This document shows positions 49,090 to 60,072 of a DNA stretch of 64,000 nt, one piece after another. The DNA comes from a virus. Within the stretch, counting starts at the first letter, position 1. Each line of letters begins with the position of its first letter. The DNA is taken from positions 31,381-95,380 of IMG/VR virus record IMGVR_UViG_3300017991_000008; one strand, 5' to 3'. Both the position numbers and the translations under genes were made by a program. The notes beneath the pieces are model-generated. The model was not told the origin of the DNA. It did no database searches and saw only the letters and a list, made by a program, of their open reading frames with translations.

Positions 49090-49161
49090 GGGACATTGGT
49101 CTAATGGTAGGGCGCTGGCCTGTCGAGCCAGATGGTACCGGTTCGAATCCGGTATGTCCCG
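49090..49161 (+). tRNA. tRNA-Asp (GTC)
   Basis: The cloverleaf can be drawn completely. Acceptor GGGACAT (49090-49096) pairs with ATGTCCC (49154-49160) leaving discriminator G; anticodon arm CTGGC-CTGTCGA-GCCAG with anticodon GTC; T arm ACCGG-TTCGAAT-CCGGT. D arm GTCT...GGGC is short and has wobble pairs. CCA is not encoded. A hairpin GCGAG...CTCGC follows at 49204. Supplies an Asp codon reader, which may suit the Asp-rich (and Asp-Thr repeat) proteins of this phage. Confidence 0.95.
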
Positions 49162-49305
49162 CCGTGGGTGCCTGGTTATAGAGACGTCAAAGGCTAGGAC
49201 GCAGCGAGGTGAAAAACTCGCACTGTATGAGATGTTGACTACATGTACGCAGGCTTTCGGTGTGCTTATGGACCGAACCCACCTGTTTTTTTTAGGAGGG
49301 AAGCA

Positions 49306-50344: not shown

Positions 50345-50564
50345 AGACGGGAAGCTCGAAGTGGATGGTGGAACGATGACCGAGCGGGACAAGGTGATTT
50401 TGTTAGGCAGGGCTGCGGCCAGAATATTCAAGGTGAAGGATCTGGGGCTTGCCGAGAGAACCCTAGTACAGGCGTTTCAGGATGAACGCGGAACCATGAT
50501 GTCCGATTCAAAGAGCTCTGTGTCACCTCAAAAGCCCAAAGAAAAGGAGAAAGAGACAGTTTAG
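50274..50564 (+). CDS. Unknown small protein, overlapping
   Basis: 96 residues from ATG 50274 with GAAGGAGG six bases upstream, inside the previous gene. It begins with a Lys/Asp-rich stretch and has a folded core (SITLKDGKLEVDGGTMTERD, ILLGRAAARIFKVKDLGL). The strong ribosome site supports it over the end of the previous frame. Confidence 0.55.
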   Translation: MAKDKDKKMTTPVETSKAVSITLKDGKLEVDGGTMTERDKVILLGRAAARIFKVKDLGLAERTLVQAFQDERGTMMSDSKSSVSPQKPKEKEKETV

Positions 50565-50588
50565 TCAGATTAGGGCCAGTCCATACGG

Positions 50589-50637
50589 GGACACGGGCAA
50601 ACGGTGTGTCCAGCCAGTCCGTCCGGTTCGAGACCGG
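50589..50637 (+). other. tRNA-like fragment (T-arm plus hairpin), not a complete tRNA
   Basis: CCGGTTCGAGACCGG (50623-50637) is a T-arm-type hairpin; upstream GGACAC (50589-50594) pairs with GTGTCC (50606-50611). The bases after the T-arm (TGGTTCTACT) have no complementary 5' acceptor in this region. It sits between the small gene and queD. A degenerate tRNA or a small stem-loop of unknown use. Confidence 0.3.
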
Positions 50638-50662
50638 TGGTTCTACTAGAAAGAGAGGGCAA

Positions 50663-51145
50663 ATGGTATTTATAACAAAAGAATTTAGATTTGAAGCTGC
50701 TCACAGGCTCCCCTGTCATGAGGGTGCGTGCTGGAATCTCCATGGTCACAGCTACAAAGTGGTGGTGACACTTGGTGGCAATACCCAAACAGAAGGTCCG
50801 GCCACTGGCATGGTTATGGACTTCAAGGATCTGTCGAGCATCATGAAAGACATTCTTGAGGTAGGCAAGTTCAAGGGTCAACCGGTGGTTCCCTGGGATC
50901 ATGCTCTGATCCTGTGGTGTGATGACCCTCTGGTTCAGTGGCTCAAGCAGTTGACCGTAGACAACAGCGACAGGGAGTTTCGTATTTTTAGAACGCTCGA
51001 GCAGCCGACCGCTGAGTACATGGCAGACCTTCTAGCCAGTATGATTCAGGAAGAATTATACTACAGGGGATTCGATAAGATAGTACATCGTGTCGAGGTG
51101 TGGGAGACGGCCAAGGCATTCGCTGCTTGGCAACGGGGGTATTAG
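50663..51145 (+). CDS. queD: 6-carboxy-5,6,7,8-tetrahydropterin synthase, QueD
   Basis: 160 residues from ATG 50663. Zinc ligands His14 (AAHRL), His27 and His29 (LHGHSY), and catalytic Cys23 (CWNLHGH) are all in place. Later, the HALILW and TAEYMADLL segments match the QueD/PTPS fold. QueD converts dihydroneopterin triphosphate to 6-carboxytetrahydropterin, the second step after FolE in 7-deazaguanine (preQ0) synthesis. It is the first gene of the preQ0 cluster. The translation from 50606 has no ribosome site. Confidence 0.93.
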   Translation: MVFITKEFRFEAAHRLPCHEGACWNLHGHSYKVVVTLGGNTQTEGPATGMVMDFKDLSSIMKDILEVGKFKGQPVVPWDHALILWCDDPLVQWLKQLTVDNSDREFRIFRTLEQPTAEYMADLLASMIQEELYYRGFDKIVHRVEVWETAKAFAAWQRGY

Positions 51146-51149
51146 ACCG

Positions 51150-51845
51150 ATGAAGAAGTATCTAATCAGAGAGATCTTTCGGTCGATACAGGGCGAAGGG
51201 CCTAGTGTGGGTCAGGACTGCGTTTTTATACGGTTTTCTGGGTGCAACCTAAACTGCTCATTCTGTGATGAGAACGGTGCGACGAATGTAACCTGGATGA
51301 CAGGGGAGGAGATCCTACAAAGGGTCGATCGGTTGATCCCAGGGGTAAAGCATTTCCGATATCGGGTTGTTCTTACCGGTGGAGAGCCATTGCTCCATGT
51401 AGATTCCGATCTTCTTACAGCGTTATTCGGTGCGGGCTATGTGATCTGTATCGAGACCAACGGAGCCAGGGACACCCAGAAGAAGATGAAGATTGAACTG
51501 GAGGAGCTCTTAAACTGCGAGGAGATGGTGGTATCTCCGAAAGATGTACCTGTGTCCCATCGTCTGCTTAGAGCAGCCACGTGCGTGAAGGTGCTTGTTG
51601 ACGAGAACGGACCCATAGTGGGACAACGTTTTAGTGAGATAGCTAAGAGCGCCTGTGAGGAGAGATCTCGCAAGGATTTGGTTCTACAGCCAGTGACTTT
51701 GAGTCCTGAGAACTGGAGACTGCGGGATGATTCAGTACAAAAGGGAGCTGAGAAGGCTTTGAGAATAGTTCGACGGAGGCGCAAGGCTTACGGCGAGGAG
51801 TGGCGGATCATACCTCAAACACACGTTTGGATGAATCTAAAATAG
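51150..51845 (+). CDS. queE: 7-carboxy-7-deazaguanine synthase, QueE
   Basis: 231 residues from ATG 51150, four bases after queD. Radical SAM Cys32-x3-Cys36-x2-Cys39 (CNLNCSFC), preceded by FRSIQGEGPSVGQ typical of QueE, then VLTGGEPLLH (SAM-binding GGEP). It rearranges carboxytetrahydropterin to 7-carboxy-7-deazaguanine. The Cys cluster has the normal Cys-x3-Cys-x2-Cys of QueE. Confidence 0.93.
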   Translation: MKKYLIREIFRSIQGEGPSVGQDCVFIRFSGCNLNCSFCDENGATNVTWMTGEEILQRVDRLIPGVKHFRYRVVLTGGEPLLHVDSDLLTALFGAGYVICIETNGARDTQKKMKIELEELLNCEEMVVSPKDVPVSHRLLRAATCVKVLVDENGPIVGQRFSEIAKSACEERSRKDLVLQPVTLSPENWRLRDDSVQKGAEKALRIVRRRRKAYGEEWRIIPQTHVWMNLK

Positions 51846-51853
51846 GAGGATAC

Positions 51854-52426
51854 ATGTCGGTCGAGGTACAAGAGGCGAAGAACGCGGTAAAGACCATACT
51901 CAAATTCATAGGAGAGGATCCAGGGAGAGAGGGATTAAGGGACACACCTGATCGGGTGATCCGTTCCTGGCAAAAATTATATGGAGGTTACCGGGAAGAT
52001 CCAGAAAAGGTCCTGAAAGCCAATTTTTCAGACGAAGGTTATGACCAAATGATTATGTTGGGACCGGTGGAGTTCTGGAGCACCTGTGAACACCACATGA
52101 TCCCGTTCTACGGGACTGTTCATGTTGGATATATCCCAGGGGACAGCAGGAAGGTTGTCGGGGTTAGTAAGTTAGCCAGAGTGATCGAGGTGTACGCTCG
52201 GCGCCTGCAGATACAAGAAAGAATGACTAAGCAGATAGCGGACGCTGTGGAGAAGTTCAGCGGAGCCAGTGGCGTCGGTGTAGTCGTTCGTGGCAAGCAT
52301 CTGTGTATGGTAGCCAGGGGAGTTGAGAAACAGCAATCGATAATGACCACGAGCGCCCTGCGTGGAGAATTGCTAAACGACGGAACGGCTCGGGCAGAGT
52401 TCCTGGCTTTTGCGGGGGAGAAGTAG
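51854..52426 (+). CDS. folE: GTP cyclohydrolase I, FolE
   Basis: 190 residues from ATG 51854 (AGGAGG upstream). The FolE motifs are complete: LRDTPDRVIRSWQKLYGGY, then CEHHMIPFYG with zinc Cys78 and His81, VVGVSKLARVIEVYARRLQIQERMTKQIADA, and HLCMVARG (second zinc Cys). It makes dihydroneopterin triphosphate from GTP, the entry to preQ0 synthesis. A phage-encoded FolE would raise the flux independent of host folate control. Confidence 0.94.
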   Translation: MSVEVQEAKNAVKTILKFIGEDPGREGLRDTPDRVIRSWQKLYGGYREDPEKVLKANFSDEGYDQMIMLGPVEFWSTCEHHMIPFYGTVHVGYIPGDSRKVVGVSKLARVIEVYARRLQIQERMTKQIADAVEKFSGASGVGVVVRGKHLCMVARGVEKQQSIMTTSALRGELLNDGTARAEFLAFAGEK

Positions 52427-52428
52427 AC

Positions 52429-53706
52429 ATGTGTTCTATTTTTGGGTGGATACGGGGGCAAGACATTGATCTGGAATTAAAGGCTCATGTCGTAATAAAT
52501 GCACGGGACAGGGGCCGAGATGGGTGGGGGTTCTGGATAGATGAAGAGGAATACCGGGGGCTGGGGGAACTGGACCCAGGGATAGTCGAGAAGCTAATGA
52601 CCGCGGATCGTGTAGTAGGTAACTTCCGTGCAATACCCACCACCGAAGTCGTTTCTACTCCCGATAATCTGCAACCTTACAAAGGAGTCGTTCATAACGG
52701 GGTGATAGCCAATGACAAGGAGTTTGGAGAATATAAGATCGATTCCATGGTTCTTGGCGACCTGTTACCTGGGTGTTCTAATTCGTTTGAATTTCTAAAG
52801 CGACTGGAGAAAATAAAGGGATCCTATGCGTTGGCATTTTTTCAGGGGCGGGATCTTTACTTGGCGGCCAACTATAAACCGATCTATTGGACGGATCGGT
52901 GTGGTGGGTGGATGTTTGCTTCTCAGGCGTACATGCTTCCGCCAGACTCCTACCCTGTAGCATTTCAACCTTACAGCCTTGCCGTAGTAGACGGGAGCTC
53001 ATTGGCGATTGCAGCGACAAGGGCTTTGCCGACCGATCAACCCCGCCGCGTGGTGGTTTCGTGTTCTGGTGGGCTCGATTCCGTGACCGTGGCTTACATG
53101 TTGAGACAGAAGGGTTACGAGGTATGTCTTGCTCACTTTCTGTATAACTGTCTAGCAGAGAATCGGGAGGTGGAAAGGGTCCGCCAAATCGCTGCTCACG
53201 GTGGATTTGAAATGGCGATCATTCAATTGCCCACTGGGGTTATGGCCGGCAGTATTACTGAGGGCAGGTTTGACAGTGGAAAAAACGGGATTACCGGGGC
53301 GGAATATGCGGTGGACTGGGTATCGGCCAGGAATCTTCTTATGTTGTCATGTCTCACGGCTTACGCCGAGACAAATCATTACGGATATATTGCGTTCGGT
53401 GGAAACCTAGAGGAGTCCGGTGCTTATCCAGATAACGAGGAGGAATTTGGAAATAGATTCAATGCGATCCTGCCATACTCTACCCAGAACGGAATAAAAA
53501 TCGAGCTACTTCAACCACTGGCAACGCTGATGAAGCATGAGATAGTGAAGAAGGGGTTAGAGTTGAATGTGCCTTTCGAGCTCACCTGGTCCTGCTACGG
53601 GGATGGAGAAAAGCATTGTGGTGTGTGCGGGCCGTGTTACATGCGAAAAACAGCGTTCGAGCGGAATGGACACAGGGATCCGGTAATGACGGATGCTGGT
53701 GTTTAA
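52429..53706 (+). CDS. queC: Gat-QueC: amidotransferase fused to 7-cyano-7-deazaguanine synthase
   Basis: 425 residues. N-terminal class II glutamine amidotransferase: starts Met-Cys, so Cys2 becomes the N-terminal nucleophile, followed by GAT-type RDRGRDGWGFWI and VVHNGVIAN. From about residue 205 is QueC: PP-loop SGGLDS (213-218), ATP-dependent, then zinc Cys 389, 397, 400 and 403 near the C-terminus. QueC makes preQ0 from 7-carboxy-7-deazaguanine. In archaea Gat-QueC fusions convert preQ0-tRNA to archaeosine. In the present context this suggests that the final DNA base is deoxyarchaeosine (dG+). No transmembrane or signal. Confidence 0.9.
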   Translation: MCSIFGWIRGQDIDLELKAHVVINARDRGRDGWGFWIDEEEYRGLGELDPGIVEKLMTADRVVGNFRAIPTTEVVSTPDNLQPYKGVVHNGVIANDKEFGEYKIDSMVLGDLLPGCSNSFEFLKRLEKIKGSYALAFFQGRDLYLAANYKPIYWTDRCGGWMFASQAYMLPPDSYPVAFQPYSLAVVDGSSLAIAATRALPTDQPRRVVVSCSGGLDSVTVAYMLRQKGYEVCLAHFLYNCLAENREVERVRQIAAHGGFEMAIIQLPTGVMAGSITEGRFDSGKNGITGAEYAVDWVSARNLLMLSCLTAYAETNHYGYIAFGGNLEESGAYPDNEEEFGNRFNAILPYSTQNGIKIELLQPLATLMKHEIVKKGLELNVPFELTWSCYGDGEKHCGVCGPCYMRKTAFERNGHRDPVMTDAGV

Positions 53707-53800
53707 TGCCGGTCAAGCACTCAGAACATGGAGATCAGAAATGCGCCTGTTTTGTGCTGATACCCATTTCGGAACACCGGAAAAGGTAAGAGAGGCCGAA

Positions 53801-54691
53801 ATGAGACTGTTCTGTGCAGGCACCGCTATTGCGAACAGTACTAAAGATGAGGGGTGTGAAAGATTATTTTACTTTGCCGCGGCTCCAATAGGTGACGGTG
53901 AAATGAGCAAGGCTCTGGAAAAGTCGATCGGATCTGGGCTACGCCACCGGCTTCTTTCGTATGCAGATATTGATAAAATAAAGGGAGCCTGGGACTTTTG
54001 GTTGAACCCCAATTTACCTGACAAGAAATTGTTTTTGGATTCGGGGGCTTTCTCGGCGTACACACGGGGCGTGCTTATCGATATCCGTGAGTATGTGGAA
54101 TTTATAAAGAAGAACGAATCGGAACTGTTTTGTTATGCTGCCTTGGATGTTATTGGTGACTGGGAAGGTACCCGTGAAAACTACGACATTATGAAGAAGA
54201 TGGGGGTTGATCCGGTACCTTGTTACCACTACGGAGAACCCTTGGACGAACTCAAGCGGTATTGTGATGACGGTGTGAAGTACATTGCCCTCGGTGGGGC
54301 TGTAGAATATGCCAGTAGCCGTGAGAAACTTGAAGCGTTCTTTGACAGCAGTTGGAGCATTCTCAGGGATTATTTTCCCATTAAAGTTCACGCTTTTGGT
54401 GTCACGGCCCAATGGGCACTCGAGCGGTATCCGTTTTATTCCTGTGACAGCACCGCGGCTATTATGGGAGGGGGCATGGGGAGGGTGCTCACCTTCGAGA
54501 ATCATCAACTCAAGAACACTACCTGGGATAAATTGGGAAAGAAATGTATGTACCCCGATCTCGTAGACGGATTATACAAAGACGGTTCTCAGCATTTGAA
54601 CCGGCGTATCCACAATGTCCGGGTCATGATGGAGTATGAGAAATACATCACCAAGGTATGGAAAACCAGGGGGATCACATGGAACGAATAG
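53801..54691 (+). CDS. dpdA: DpdA-type DNA guanine transglycosylase (TGT-like)
   Basis: 296 residues from ATG 53801. TGT-like barrel with LFLDSGAFSAY (Asp80, conserved in DpdA proteins of phages), YAALDVIGDWEGTRENYD, PVPCYHYGEP and KYIALGGAV. DpdA replaces guanine in DNA by preQ0 or its derivatives. It ends the preQ0 cluster and overlaps the phosphoribosyltransferase gene. Two other ATGs (53693, 53741) are in frame upstream; the bases before 53741 and 53801 are an imperfect repeat with MRLFCA in both, so the true start may be 53741. The typical fold seems complete from 53801. Confidence 0.88.
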   Translation: MRLFCAGTAIANSTKDEGCERLFYFAAAPIGDGEMSKALEKSIGSGLRHRLLSYADIDKIKGAWDFWLNPNLPDKKLFLDSGAFSAYTRGVLIDIREYVEFIKKNESELFCYAALDVIGDWEGTRENYDIMKKMGVDPVPCYHYGEPLDELKRYCDDGVKYIALGGAVEYASSREKLEAFFDSSWSILRDYFPIKVHAFGVTAQWALERYPFYSCDSTAAIMGGGMGRVLTFENHQLKNTTWDKLGKKCMYPDLVDGLYKDGSQHLNRRIHNVRVMMEYEKYITKVWKTRGITWNE

Positions 54692-55107
54692 CCCAACAAA
54701 TACAGGGGCTTGAATTTGATTGGTACGTGACGATCTCTCGTGGGGGGTTGGTACCGGCATGTCTCTTGGCCCAGATTACTGGACAAAGACAAATAGACAC
54801 GTTCTGTGTGTGGAGCTATGCGGGAAATAGACCCACCTTACCGGCCCACGTGCTCAAAGAATCCAAACATCTTGAAGGCCAAACGATTTTGCTAATCGAC
54901 GATCTCGTGGACAGTGGTAAGACAATGGAGTCAGCGGTGTACTGGATCCATCGTTGGCACCCAAAATCCATCACAACAGCGGTGCTTTACAAAAAGGATT
55001 GCTCGATATTCATCCCGGATTACTGGGCGGAAGAGATCTCAAAGGACAAATGGCTAGACTTCCCGTGGGAGAAAGATCAGAGGATAGAGGTCACATGGCA
55101 AAAATAA
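54658..55107 (+). CDS. Phosphoribosyltransferase, purine/xanthine type
   Basis: 149 residues from ATG 54658 (ATG 54679 is also possible). The PRPP-binding loop is ILLIDDLVDSGKTMESA, the hallmark of type I PRTases; a start-side FDWYVTISRGGLVPACLLA gives the strand and G-G-L-(V/I)-P. It ends with W-L-D-F-P-W, like the C-terminal region of xanthine/hypoxanthine PRTases. It could salvage guanine to GMP for FolE, or recycle guanine freed by DpdA base exchange. Overlaps dpdA and the ParB-like gene, so part of the same unit. Confidence 0.8.
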   Translation: MENQGDHMERIAQQIQGLEFDWYVTISRGGLVPACLLAQITGQRQIDTFCVWSYAGNRPTLPAHVLKESKHLEGQTILLIDDLVDSGKTMESAVYWIHRWHPKSITTAVLYKKDCSIFIPDYWAEEISKDKWLDFPWEKDQRIEVTWQK

Positions 55108-55700
55108 CGAAAAAGGGGTGGGTACAATTACCCACCAAAAAACTGGTCAAGGCTGATTGGAACTATAAAGAGGATGATGAAGAGAAGGCGGCGACGCTGA
55201 CGGCCAATATCAGGAGAAACGGCCAGATAGAAAACATCATCGTCCGAGAGGTAGACGGGGGGAAGTTTGAAGTAGCCAACGGGAACCACCGTGTCGATTC
55301 CTTTCTAGATCTCAAATTCAAGACCTGCATATGTTATAATCTGGGTCCTGTATCGGAGCAGGAGGCGAAGCGGGTAGCGGTGGAGACCAACGAAACCAGG
55401 TTTAACAGTGACCGGACGGCGTTGGCGTCGATAATCCACGAACTCGGCTTTGCTGCCGATGCCGAGTTCGACCTAGCGGATCTTGTCGAGACCATGCCCT
55501 ATGATGAGACAGAGCTAAAAGGATTTTCAGATCTTCTGAATTTCGACTGGAGTTCCTTTGAACAGAAACGGGTGCCACCACCAAACTCAGGTGACGAGGA
55601 TGGGGACTCGGGCCCCACGGGGGAGGGTGGAGGTGCTCGGATTATTTGCTGTCCGCACTGTGAAGGGGAGATCAACCTGGACGACCTAGAAAACACATAA
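55095..55700 (+). CDS. ParB-like nuclease/CTPase-fold protein with zinc-ribbon tail
   Basis: 201 residues from ATG 55095. The ParB-N fold is seen as LTANIRRNGQIENIIVREV, then GNHRVDSFLDL (the G-x-x-R box). The C-terminal about 30 residues hold C-C-P-H-C, half of a zinc ribbon, after a Gly/Pro/Ser linker. ParB-like proteins of phages occur near modification genes and may bind DNA as sliding clamps, regulate modification, or act as nucleases. A site-specific role is not visible. The translation further upstream is in another gene. Confidence 0.7.
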   Translation: MAKITKKGWVQLPTKKLVKADWNYKEDDEEKAATLTANIRRNGQIENIIVREVDGGKFEVANGNHRVDSFLDLKFKTCICYNLGPVSEQEAKRVAVETNETRFNSDRTALASIIHELGFAADAEFDLADLVETMPYDETELKGFSDLLNFDWSSFEQKRVPPPNSGDEDGDSGPTGEGGGARIICCPHCEGEINLDDLENT

Positions 55701-57175: not shown

Positions 57176-58051
57176 ATGCAAAGGGGAACACAGGGCAAAA
57201 AATACGACAAGAGCCTAACCACTAAACAGATCACACAGATTATCCGAAACAACATTAAGCAAGCCAAGAAGGACGGGATCCTACCCCAGGATCTGAGGGT
57301 ATCCGTGAGAATGAGAAAGGTGACCTGGGATCACGCAATCGACATGACGATCACCAAGCTCGACACCAAGATCTTTAATGAAGAATTTATCAGGTGGGAA
57401 ATGGAACACCCGCACGATCCCTACCCGGCCAACATACCAAGGTATGAACCTGAGACCCAAAGGATTCTTGATATGCTCCGGGGTTTTCACGACGATTACA
57501 ACTACGACCGATCCGACAGCATGACCGATTACTTTGACGTGAACTACTACGGGGGAGTGAGTATTGATTTTAGACTGGAGGAGCAAGCCAGGGAGGTTCT
57601 CAGGAGCAGGATTGAGAGCGGGGCTGATAACGTTGTGAAAGCACTAGAAGAGACCGTGGACCAGCACCGGGACGGTATAAAGGTGGAAGATAAGGGGGAC
57701 CGGGTGGTTATCGAATCAGACCACCCCTCAGTGGTTGAAGCGACCGAATGCCCTGATACGTTTGACACGAAAATAGACGAGGTTCTTGGGCTCGACGTCA
57801 CTGTGACCTTGCCAGTGATAGGAAAAATGGAAATACCGGGTCTGTGGGGGAGTTTTGGTATCGCCCACATAGCAAAAGGCCCACTTGGTAGAAAATCCTA
57901 TCTTGTTTGGAGGAACACCGATCTTTTTTACGTTCACGAATGGCCCACGGGTGCTTTTGAAGTTTACCGACTTGGTGAAGAGGATCCCTACCTGGTAGGC
58001 GACGAAGGGCAACTAAGAATGGAAATTAGCACCGAGAATAGCAATGCCTAG
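57176..58051 (+). CDS. LPD29-like protein
   Basis: 291 residues. The first about 130 residues resemble the LPD29-type polyvalent domain: LTTKQITQIIRNNIKQA, LRVSVRMRKVTWDHAIDM, and TQRILDMLRGFHDDYNYDRSDSMTDYF. The C-terminal half (VVIESDHPSVVEATE and IGKMEIPGLWGSF) is of an unknown type. Such proteins occur on mobile elements and phages, but the roles are unknown. It overlaps the C5 methyltransferase by 8 bases, so they are co-translated. Confidence 0.55.
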   Translation: MQRGTQGKKYDKSLTTKQITQIIRNNIKQAKKDGILPQDLRVSVRMRKVTWDHAIDMTITKLDTKIFNEEFIRWEMEHPHDPYPANIPRYEPETQRILDMLRGFHDDYNYDRSDSMTDYFDVNYYGGVSIDFRLEEQAREVLRSRIESGADNVVKALEETVDQHRDGIKVEDKGDRVVIESDHPSVVEATECPDTFDTKIDEVLGLDVTVTLPVIGKMEIPGLWGSFGIAHIAKGPLGRKSYLVWRNTDLFYVHEWPTGAFEVYRLGEEDPYLVGDEGQLRMEISTENSNA

Positions 58052-59519
58052 GCCGCCGATTATCAGAGCAGCATTTGAGGGGGAATTGATAGTTGACAAT
58101 TTTGCTGGCGGAGGTGGAGCGTCAACAGGTATTGAGACCGCTATAGGGCGCCCGGTGGATATCGCCATCAACCACAGTCCCGAGGCTATCGCCATGCACA
58201 GGGCAAACCACCCGAGAACGAGACACTATTGCGAAAACATTTGGGAGGTGGACCCAGTCGAGGCTTGCGGTGGAAGGGCTGTCGGGTTGGCGTGGTTTAG
58301 CCCAGATTGTACACACCACTCCAGAGCCAAGGGAGGGAAGCCCCGTAAAAAATCGATCCGTGGTTTAGCGTGGGTTGTGATCCGGTGGGCCAAGAAGGTA
58401 CGACCGAGGGTGATCATGCTTGAGAACGTGGAGGAATTCTCTACCTGGGGACCACTAAACAAAAAAGGATACCCTATCAAATCACGAGCCGGTGAGACGT
58501 TCAACAGATTCGTTTCTAGGTTGTCGGACCTTGGATACCAGGTGGACGTGAAATCCCTTGTGTGCGCCGACTACGGTACGCCAACAACCCGAAAGAGACT
58601 GTTCCTGATCGCCAGGAGAGACGGTCATTCGGTGGTATGGCCAACACCGACACACGGTGAGGGGAGATCGGAGAAATGGATCCCGGCATCAAAAATCATT
58701 GACTGGTCATTGTCGTGCCCCAGTATATTTGACCGGAACCCACCACTGGTTCACAACACGCTCAGGAGGATCGGTGAGGGGATCCGACGGTATGTGGTGG
58801 AGACAGATTCACCATTCATTGTTCCCGGGGGGGTGGGCAGGCCGACAGGACAGTTGGCTTTGCTCGAGCAACCAGACCGACAGACCATGGTAGCCGCGTT
58901 TTTATCCAGATACTTCAAGTCGTCGGTGGGGCAAGGGCTGGACAAACCGGCGCCGACGGTGATGGCCGGTGGTGGCGGCAAGACAGCTCTAGTGGCTGCC
59001 ACCATGATTCAAACCGGATACGGGGAGAGACCTGGACAGAACCCTCGGGCCCTAAATATCGAAAGGCCACTGGGTACCGTGGTAGCCGGTGGAGCAAAAC
59101 ACGCCATTATTGCCGCGTTTCTCAATAAGCATTATGGGGGTGTCGTGGGACATGGGGTGGAGAGACCTATCGGTACCGTCACAGCAGTTGACCACCATTC
59201 GGTGACCTATGCTTTCATGTCCAAGTACTACGGAACCACCACTGGTCACAGCCTGCGTGGGCCAGTGCACACCATAACGGGGCAGGGACAGCACCTAGCT
59301 TTGGTCTTGGTCAAGGGTATCCCCTACCGGATCGTGGACATAGGTATGAGAATGCTTCAACCTCATGAGCTCTTTGCAGCCCAGGGATTTCCCGAGAATT
59401 ATGTCATCGATCCGTGGTTCAAGGGAAAGCCGTTGACTAAGACAGCTCAGATCTCACTTGCTGGCAATGCGGTTCCCCCTCAACCGGTGGAGGGAATGGT
59501 TAGGGATAACGCAGCATAA
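58044..59519 (+). CDS. DNA cytosine-C5 methyltransferase-like protein
   Basis: 491 residues. SAM-binding FAGGGGAST (20-28), motif IV SPDCTH with Cys89 as expected nucleophile (the usual P-C is D-C here), motif VI MLENVEEF, and the motif VIII KRLFLIARRDG. The middle to C-terminal half (residues about 275-430) holds a run of repeats about 45 residues long, with FLSRYFKSSVG or FMSKYYGTTTG, then G-L/V-x-x-P-x-x-T-V-x-(A/G). This repeat replaces or extends the target recognition domain. C-terminal motifs IX/X (VDIGMRMLQPHELFAAQGFP, LAGNAVPP) are present. A phage-type Dcm, giving 5-methylcytosine or a further modified base. Confidence 0.85.
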   Translation: MPRPPIIRAAFEGELIVDNFAGGGGASTGIETAIGRPVDIAINHSPEAIAMHRANHPRTRHYCENIWEVDPVEACGGRAVGLAWFSPDCTHHSRAKGGKPRKKSIRGLAWVVIRWAKKVRPRVIMLENVEEFSTWGPLNKKGYPIKSRAGETFNRFVSRLSDLGYQVDVKSLVCADYGTPTTRKRLFLIARRDGHSVVWPTPTHGEGRSEKWIPASKIIDWSLSCPSIFDRNPPLVHNTLRRIGEGIRRYVVETDSPFIVPGGVGRPTGQLALLEQPDRQTMVAAFLSRYFKSSVGQGLDKPAPTVMAGGGGKTALVAATMIQTGYGERPGQNPRALNIERPLGTVVAGGAKHAIIAAFLNKHYGGVVGHGVERPIGTVTAVDHHSVTYAFMSKYYGTTTGHSLRGPVHTITGQGQHLALVLVKGIPYRIVDIGMRMLQPHELFAAQGFPENYVIDPWFKGKPLTKTAQISLAGNAVPPQPVEGMVRDNAA

Positions 59520-59972: not shown

Positions 59973-59998
59973 AAGGACCAGCAGGGTCCTTTCTTTTT
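59973..59998 (+). terminator. Rho-independent terminator abutting the tRNA
   Basis: AAGGACC (59973-59979), loop AGCAG, GGTCCTT (59985-59991), then TCTTTTT (59992-59998). A seven-pair stem with a T-run, ending directly at the first tRNA base. It would stop readthrough from the gene upstream. If transcription starts at the promoter 59939, the hairpin lies at the 5' end of the RNA. Confidence 0.7.
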
Positions 59999-60069
59999 GC
60001 GGGGTGGAGCAGTGGTAGCTCGTCAGGCTCATAACCTGAAGGCCGTCGGTTCAAGTCCGGCCCCCGCAA
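59998..60069 (+). tRNA. tRNA-Met (CAT), initiator-like
   Basis: Nearly identical to bacterial initiator tRNA: acceptor GCGGGG (59999-60004) with CCCCGC (60062-60067), D arm GAGC...GCTC with the A11-T24 pair of initiators, anticodon arm TCAGG-CTCATAA-CCTGA, T arm with GTTCAAGTC. Differences: T at position 1 pairs with A72 instead of the C1-A72 mismatch, the third of the three G-C pairs in the anticodon stem has become A-T with a compensating change, and the D-loop is two bases shorter. The 3' end is AACAA, so CCA is not encoded. It could act as an initiator or elongator Met tRNA. Confidence 0.85.
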
Positions 60070-60072
60070 CAA

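Follow-up and report, generated by a model that had tools for sequence, protein, structure and literature searches.

Why does a phosphoribosyltransferase (PRTase) gene stand inside a phage gene cluster that is predicted to replace part of the guanine in DNA with a 7-deazaguanine base? The question is raised by positions 50663-55700 of a 64,000-nucleotide stretch of viral DNA (hereafter the window), which comprises bases 31381-95380 of the 95,380-base virus record IMGVR_UViG_3300017991_000008 and is therefore regarded as coming from a phage contig. Seven tightly packed, co-directional genes lie here on the + strand in the order queD-queE-folE-gat-queC-dpdA-PRTase-parB-like. An earlier note, made from the sequence alone, had placed the first five genes in one unit, and our family searches and motif checks confirm that all five are present on that strand, with each of the FolE, QueD, QueE, QueC and DpdA families matched by profile search. 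The note had also singled out the PRTase and ParB-like neighbours as worth comparing with known clusters, and on comparison the PRTase is seen to accompany the pathway that makes the base preQ0 again and again. This recurrent link is the new element of the study, while the core for making deoxyarchaeosine (dG+) is already known in kind.

The evidence for the link comes from two directions. Scans of IMG/VR for close relatives with the window DpdA or PRTase alone as query returned no match, so that alignment-based searches were needed. Our forward set was drawn from IMG/VR DpdA loci and comprised 48 non-redundant clusters, each holding three or more preQ0 genes, in which PRTases were detected by a motif scan and then by profile searches, and the controls were 80 phage loci around a DNA methyltransferase, which collapse to 46 clusters. 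A PRTase domain is found in 27 of the 48 clusters, fused N-terminally to FolE in 20 and as a separate gene in 7, and in 0 of the 80 control loci (p = 6e-15; 1e-10 after collapsing the controls to 46 clusters). Conversely, 39 of 79 IMG/VR loci picked by PRTase similarity alone have at least two of FolE, QueC, QueD and QueE, mostly no more than 250 nt from the PRTase, in a test that is biased by a PRTase query profile derived mainly from preQ0 clusters. After clustering, at least two preQ0 genes are seen in 35 of 72 PRTase-selected clusters (80% identity) or 24 of 47 (50%), versus 0 of 46 control clusters, and 23 of the 39 PRTase-selected loci that have preQ0 genes carry a DpdA1 or DpdA2-like gene within their flanks. 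When the standalone PRTase of Brevundimonas phage StAshley was searched against 50,697 phage records, only 22 matches were obtained, 18 of them in Brevundimonas, Flavobacterium, Cellulophaga and Campylobacter phages. In the matched phages of the first three genera preQ0 genes were directly seen, and in StAshley and Flavobacterium phage immuto the standalone PRTase adjoins FolE. Taken together, these results make it quite likely that the PRTase is functionally tied to the preQ0 pathway.

The fused form is also present in cultured phages, including Quinobequin-P09, PaMx25, NP1, VpKK5, MMDA13 and Bhz54, and in 33 phage records a match spans at least 80% of the PRTase-FolE fusion. Where annotated, these fusions bear only a GTP cyclohydrolase label, as in the MMDA13 paper, where the gene is named FolE only. 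The 297-aa FolE of Quinobequin-P09 can be read as PRTase plus FolE. Pfam confirmed FolE in six of six fusion proteins examined and the PRTase domain at its curated cut-off in three, and the remaining three N-terminal domains, below the cut-off or missed, nevertheless align with the PRTase family. The PRTase link suggests that some of the proteins labelled FolE in cultured phages are bifunctional. Literature term searches found no PRTase linked to this pathway, although supplements were outside their scope and an earlier mention is possible. A further candidate was rejected: the FolE of Providencia phage PSTCR7 (L007:8932-9948) is extended by 150 residues at its N-terminus, but the extension is unrelated to PRTase. 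In some loci with PRTase, QueD and QueE, such as L295:7291-8097, a FolE2-type cyclohydrolase, recognised by eye and matching only a PHROG of unknown function, seemingly replaces FolE.

As to what the enzyme may be, the window PRTase matches GPT-2 (4z1o, 4e-16) and E. coli xanthine-guanine phosphoribosyltransferase (XGPRT; 1a95, 2e-15) in the PDB, and it carries both Gpt signatures, the phosphoribosyl pyrophosphate (PRPP) loop DDxxD(S/T)GxT and a WxxxPW(E/D) end. Its predicted activity is accordingly of the xanthine-guanine (XGPRT/Gpt) type, as far as homology can tell. The possibility of a defence toxin was dropped, because the PADLOC matches to ShosT/PsyrT reach just 8e-5 to 1.5e-4 and centre on the PRPP loop, and the XGPRT match is far stronger.

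Guanine has to be set free whenever DpdA exchanges bases. Because the PRTase is fused to GTP-consuming FolE in other phages and adjoins guanine-releasing DpdA here, we infer from gene fusion and context that guanine salvage is its role, a reading in which we place slightly more belief than doubt. In the scheme that we propose, FolE, QueD, QueE and the QueC part of Gat-QueC would convert GTP to preQ0, the Gat part would provide the amino group to give archaeosine (G+), and DpdA would put preQ0 or G+ in the place of guanine in phage DNA. The XGPRT-like PRTase would then join the DpdA-released guanine to PRPP, and the resulting GMP would rejoin the GTP pool that feeds FolE. The ParB-like protein would probably assist or target DpdA, or belong with adjacent packaging genes. 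That the unit makes dG+-type DNA and recycles its by-product is the best explanation of the whole, which we favour by a modest degree. Several points weigh against it. The PRTase is absent from many DpdA phages, among them phage 9g, and the window DpdA is merely 31% identical to that of 9g and forms a separate lineage. The phiST PRTase adjoins deoxynucleoside monophosphate (dNMP) kinase and ribonucleotide reductase (RNR) genes, not preQ0 genes. Moreover, host cells usually own Gpt/Hpt, and the phage copy may therefore be just a boost. Finally, a weakly similar PRTase also occurs in Campylobacter phages, which have been reported without DpdA (PMC6884629).

Some of these observations invite other roles for the PRTase. 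It could boost purine salvage in general, in aid of phage DNA synthesis, while travelling with nucleotide-metabolism genes and acting independently of DpdA-released guanine. The neighbours of the phiST PRTase, and the 31 of 79 PRTase-selected loci with no preQ0 gene in the examined flanks, would agree with such a role, but the recurrent FolE fusion and the strong two-way linkage to preQ0 genes, versus 0 of 80 controls, make it unlikely. It could also ribosylate preQ0 or G+ with PRPP, after which kinase and RNR would deliver a modified dGTP to the polymerase. This route stays a candidate because in StAshley and phiST the PRTase adjoins RNR and dNMP kinase genes or lies close to them, and the Campylobacter phages again possess the PRTase without a reported DpdA. 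Against it, a DpdA1 or DpdA2-like gene is also found in the window phage and in most linked loci, the fusion partner is FolE, the first enzyme, and not QueC, and 6-oxopurine PRTases are thought to use the purine N7, which is missing in deazaguanines, so that we regard the route as improbable. Salvage of guanine thus remains our preferred role for the PRTase, whose link to the pathway draws attention to what becomes of the guanine freed by base exchange, a matter so far overlooked. With less assurance, we speculate that phage 7-deazaguanine modification might operate as a closed guanine cycle in which the PRTase, often fused to FolE, would be an undescribed standard component; we are a little more doubtful than convinced of this. 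The link also lets laboratory phages be used to test the cost of base replacement at the DNA level, and if it is true that the PRTase uses deazaguanine bases, it offers a lead on how 7-deazaguanines are installed in phages without DpdA.

Which base would the cluster place in DNA? The window Gat-QueC is covered from residue 1 to 417 by phrog_10428, the PHROG family that contains Gat-QueC, and shows a Met-Cys start, HNG, SGGLDS and Cx7CxxCxxC. It is 38% identical to that of phage 9g and 40% to that of Vid5, and its amidotransferase, PP-loop and zinc residues are conserved in an alignment of 10 homologues including 9g. The Gat-QueC and DpdA of 9g install dG+ in E. coli plasmid DNA, and dG+ has been found by mass spectrometry in 9g phage DNA (PMC6884629) and in the DNA of Vid5, where it makes up 7.55% of G (PMC8306585). 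We have little doubt in predicting that this phage carries a 7-deazaguanine DNA modification. Because the Gat-QueC motifs are conserved, and given the 9g and Vid5 evidence, dG+ is the best prediction of the main product and, by analogy with these phages, a likely one, which lends support to the same prediction in the earlier note. Archaeosine in DNA shields phage DNA against bacterial cutting enzymes. The main product could instead be dPreQ0, 2'-deoxy-7-amido-7-deazaguanosine (dADG) or another derivative, since gene content has misled earlier predictions: Dp-1, expected to have dG+ or dPreQ1, had dPreQ1, and nt-1 carried mainly dPreQ0 (PMC6884629). The mispredicted phages, however, relied on QueF-L or ArcS, while the two Gat-QueC phages whose DNA measurements we consulted, 9g and Vid5, carry dG+ and the window protein keeps the catalytic columns of Gat, so we consider a different product rather improbable. 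It has further been suggested for phages that have preQ0 genes without DpdA that these genes boost queuosine in host tRNA (PMC6884629). For the window phage, with DpdA not acting on DNA, such a role is hardly credible, because intact dpdA and gat-queC share one unit, and because the 9g Gat-QueC, which seems to direct preQ0 towards DpdA, did not restore queuosine in E. coli. Synthesis of dG+ from GTP through preQ0, the pathway that we favour here, is already known, and the core cluster is a divergent, uncultured lineage of known phage dG+ clusters.

The assignment of DpdA rests on remote similarity. A Pfam search with the window DpdA gave no match, and it is matched by PHROG queuine tRNA-ribosyltransferase families, best by phrog_887. 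A profile built on 39 DpdA relatives matches a solved DNA-guanine transglycosylase (PDB 7ui4, 6.9e-5), and D80 (in LDSGAF), H197 and D216 are invariant across the 39 sequences. In an AlphaFold2 (AF2) model with a mean pLDDT (predicted local distance difference test) of 84, the best fold match is QTRT1, a subunit of tRNA-guanine transglycosylase (TGT), with a template modelling (TM) score of 0.62; the modelled TIM-barrel TGT fold and the two invariant Asp residues would place the protein in the TGT superfamily. The CxCxxC...H zinc site of tRNA TGTs is absent from the window DpdA by motif check, as it is from 9g DpdA, and because this motif is missing the window DpdA is not a canonical tRNA TGT. 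The earlier claim of intact zinc, radical SAM (S-adenosylmethionine), PP-loop and TGT-like motifs stands with the one correction that DpdA is without this zinc site, and alignment of Gat-QueC and DpdA uncovered no loss of active-site residues, the DpdA Asp residues being kept as well. In a quick tree, many of whose inner branches are weak, the window DpdA groups with uncultured phages, apart from 9g and other sampled Queuovirinae.

The start of dpdA has features of its own. Alternative in-frame ATGs lie at 53693 and 53741, and an imperfect self-copy precedes the start within 53730-53840, with ATG 53741 (MRLFCAD) and ATG 53801 (MRLFCAG) each having a ribosome-binding-like site; the repeat gives a local alignment score of 38, the highest score among 500 shuffles being 31. 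Elsewhere, tandem dpdA pairs were observed at L006:670-2751, L036:5248-6866, L020:6312-7660, L088:1989-3712, L095:6842-8719 and L108:6084-7816, and in L095 each of the two genes has its own parB 3' of it; such pairs possibly represent heterodimers or differing base specificities. A DpdA2-like family with the motifs DNSxxELG, HLLG and IDxSNP was recognised in StAshley (L112:6975-7775) and in 19 loci among L248-L311 (for example, L309:546-1349). Its members fall in PHROG_19058 of 'unknown function' or in no family, and the StAshley copy has no transglycosylase annotation; with this gene recognised, the view that StAshley is without a transglycosylase was dropped.

The AF2 model of the ParB-like protein (pLDDT 86) matches ParB/Noc (6e-8) and sulfiredoxin (5e-5), and on this model its fold is of the ParB/sulfiredoxin type. 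No more than 150 nt separate a ParB gene from DpdA in 18 of the 48 clusters, whereas 3 of the 80 controls have ParB anywhere in the locus. ParB neighbours of DpdA have been proposed by others as DpdB (PMC6392294), and the window protein, a ParB/sulfiredoxin fold beside DpdA with the PRTase gene intervening, may be a candidate counterpart of bacterial DpdB. A PADLOC scan gave no DpdB match, and whether PADLOC includes a DpdB model was not checked. A packaging role is equally possible, because in the uncultured phage L012 (IMGVR_UViG_3300031485_000095) ParB directly precedes the terminase genes, which were identified by eye.

The gene calls are collected in Table 1; for each of the seven the motif checks bear out the family searches, and the signature motifs are intact. 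Gaps from queD through gat-queC measure 2-8 nt, 94 nt lie ahead of dpdA, and the PRTase gene overlaps both dpdA and the parB-like gene by 13 nt.

Table 1. Genes of the cluster, with coordinates in the window
Gene product	Coordinates	Strand	Length (aa)	Family matches	Motifs
QueD (6-carboxytetrahydropterin synthase)	50663..51145	+	160	PF01242 (PTPS) 4.9e-27; PHROG QueD 7e-28	Cx3HGH = CWNLHGH
QueE (radical SAM)	51150..51845	+		PHROG QueE-like 1.5e-29; PF04055 (Radical_SAM) 4.8e-12	Cx3Cx2C = CNLNCSFC; TGGEP
FolE (GTP cyclohydrolase I)	51854..52426	+	190	PF01227 (GTP_cyclohydroI) 7e-68; NCBIfam FolE 3.7e-71, above cut-off	CEHH; HxC (HLC)
Gat-QueC (N-terminal glutamine amidotransferase, Cys2, + QueC)	52429..53706	+	425	phrog_10428 2.5e-97; PF06508 (QueC) 1.3e-47	
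DpdA (predicted DNA-guanine transglycosylase)	53801..54691	+	296	phrog_887 4.9e-49	LDSGAF; CDS
PRTase (predicted xanthine-guanine type)	54679..55107	+	142	PF00156 (Pribosyltran) 8e-15	RGG; DDLVDSGKT
ParB-like protein	55095..55700	+	201	phrog_723 (ParB-like) 2.5e-18; ParB_N 5e-4	GNHR

Elsewhere the window contains genes for a tail tape measure protein, a baseplate wedge protein and a DnaB-like protein, which mark the virus as a tailed phage whose tail is probably contractile. At 58044-59519 it encodes a C5 cytosine DNA methyltransferase (PF00145, 1e-24), and the phage may therefore have a second DNA modification. The cluster is flanked by genes for tRNA-Asp(GUC), an ordinary target of queuosine modification, and tRNA-Met (49090-49163 and 59998-60070), and immediately 5' of queD, at 50560-50645, lies an inverted repeat resembling a tRNA T-arm (ccggttcgagaccgg), for which ARAGORN and Rfam gave no match and which was rejected as a tRNA. 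Gat-QueC and DpdA were also observed in contigs filed under bacteria, namely L198 (Parcubacteria metagenome-assembled genome (MAG) SURF_62), L200/L232 (Anaerolinea MAG) and L199 (Paraburkholderia adhaesiva), all probably phage or prophage DNA; the order in L200 is QueE-GatQueC-QueD-PRTase-FolE-DpdA.

How, then, does the window compare with known systems? The 9g/Queuovirinae clusters (KJ419279) share FolE, QueD, QueE, Gat-QueC and DpdA with it, and as in 9g-type dG+ clusters the unit combines preQ0 enzymes bearing active-site motifs, a Gat-QueC with an N-terminal Cys, and DpdA. However, the 9g order is QueE-hypothetical-GatQueC-QueD-FolE-DpdA-clamp-PolB, with neither PRTase nor ParB adjoining DpdA, and since the window has neither a DpdA of the 9g clade nor the 9g-type gene order, it would not belong with Queuovirinae. 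The gene order, another feature that the earlier note had thought worth comparing, is matched by L012 and a second uncultured phage, L029 (IMGVR_UViG_3300048611_000085), both with QueD-QueE-FolE-GatQueC-DpdA-ParB, and the L012 Gat-QueC is 58-60% identical to that of the window. Unlike the window, these two phages are without the PRTase and have ParB directly after DpdA; in L012 two copies of ParB stand immediately ahead of the terminase genes, and DpdA measures just 208 aa. The PRTase-FolE fusion phages, of which Quinobequin-P09 shares Gat-QueC with the window, likewise have an XGPRT-like PRTase within the preQ0/DpdA cluster, but there it forms the N-terminal part of FolE, whereas the window FolE contains no PRTase domain and the PRTase has its own gene, placed between dpdA and parB. 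The bacterial Dpd system (DpdA, the ParB-like DpdB and DpdC) also joins a TGT-like DpdA to a ParB-superfamily protein (PMC12839542, PMC6392294), and it differs from the window unit in that the latter is without DpdC or restriction genes.

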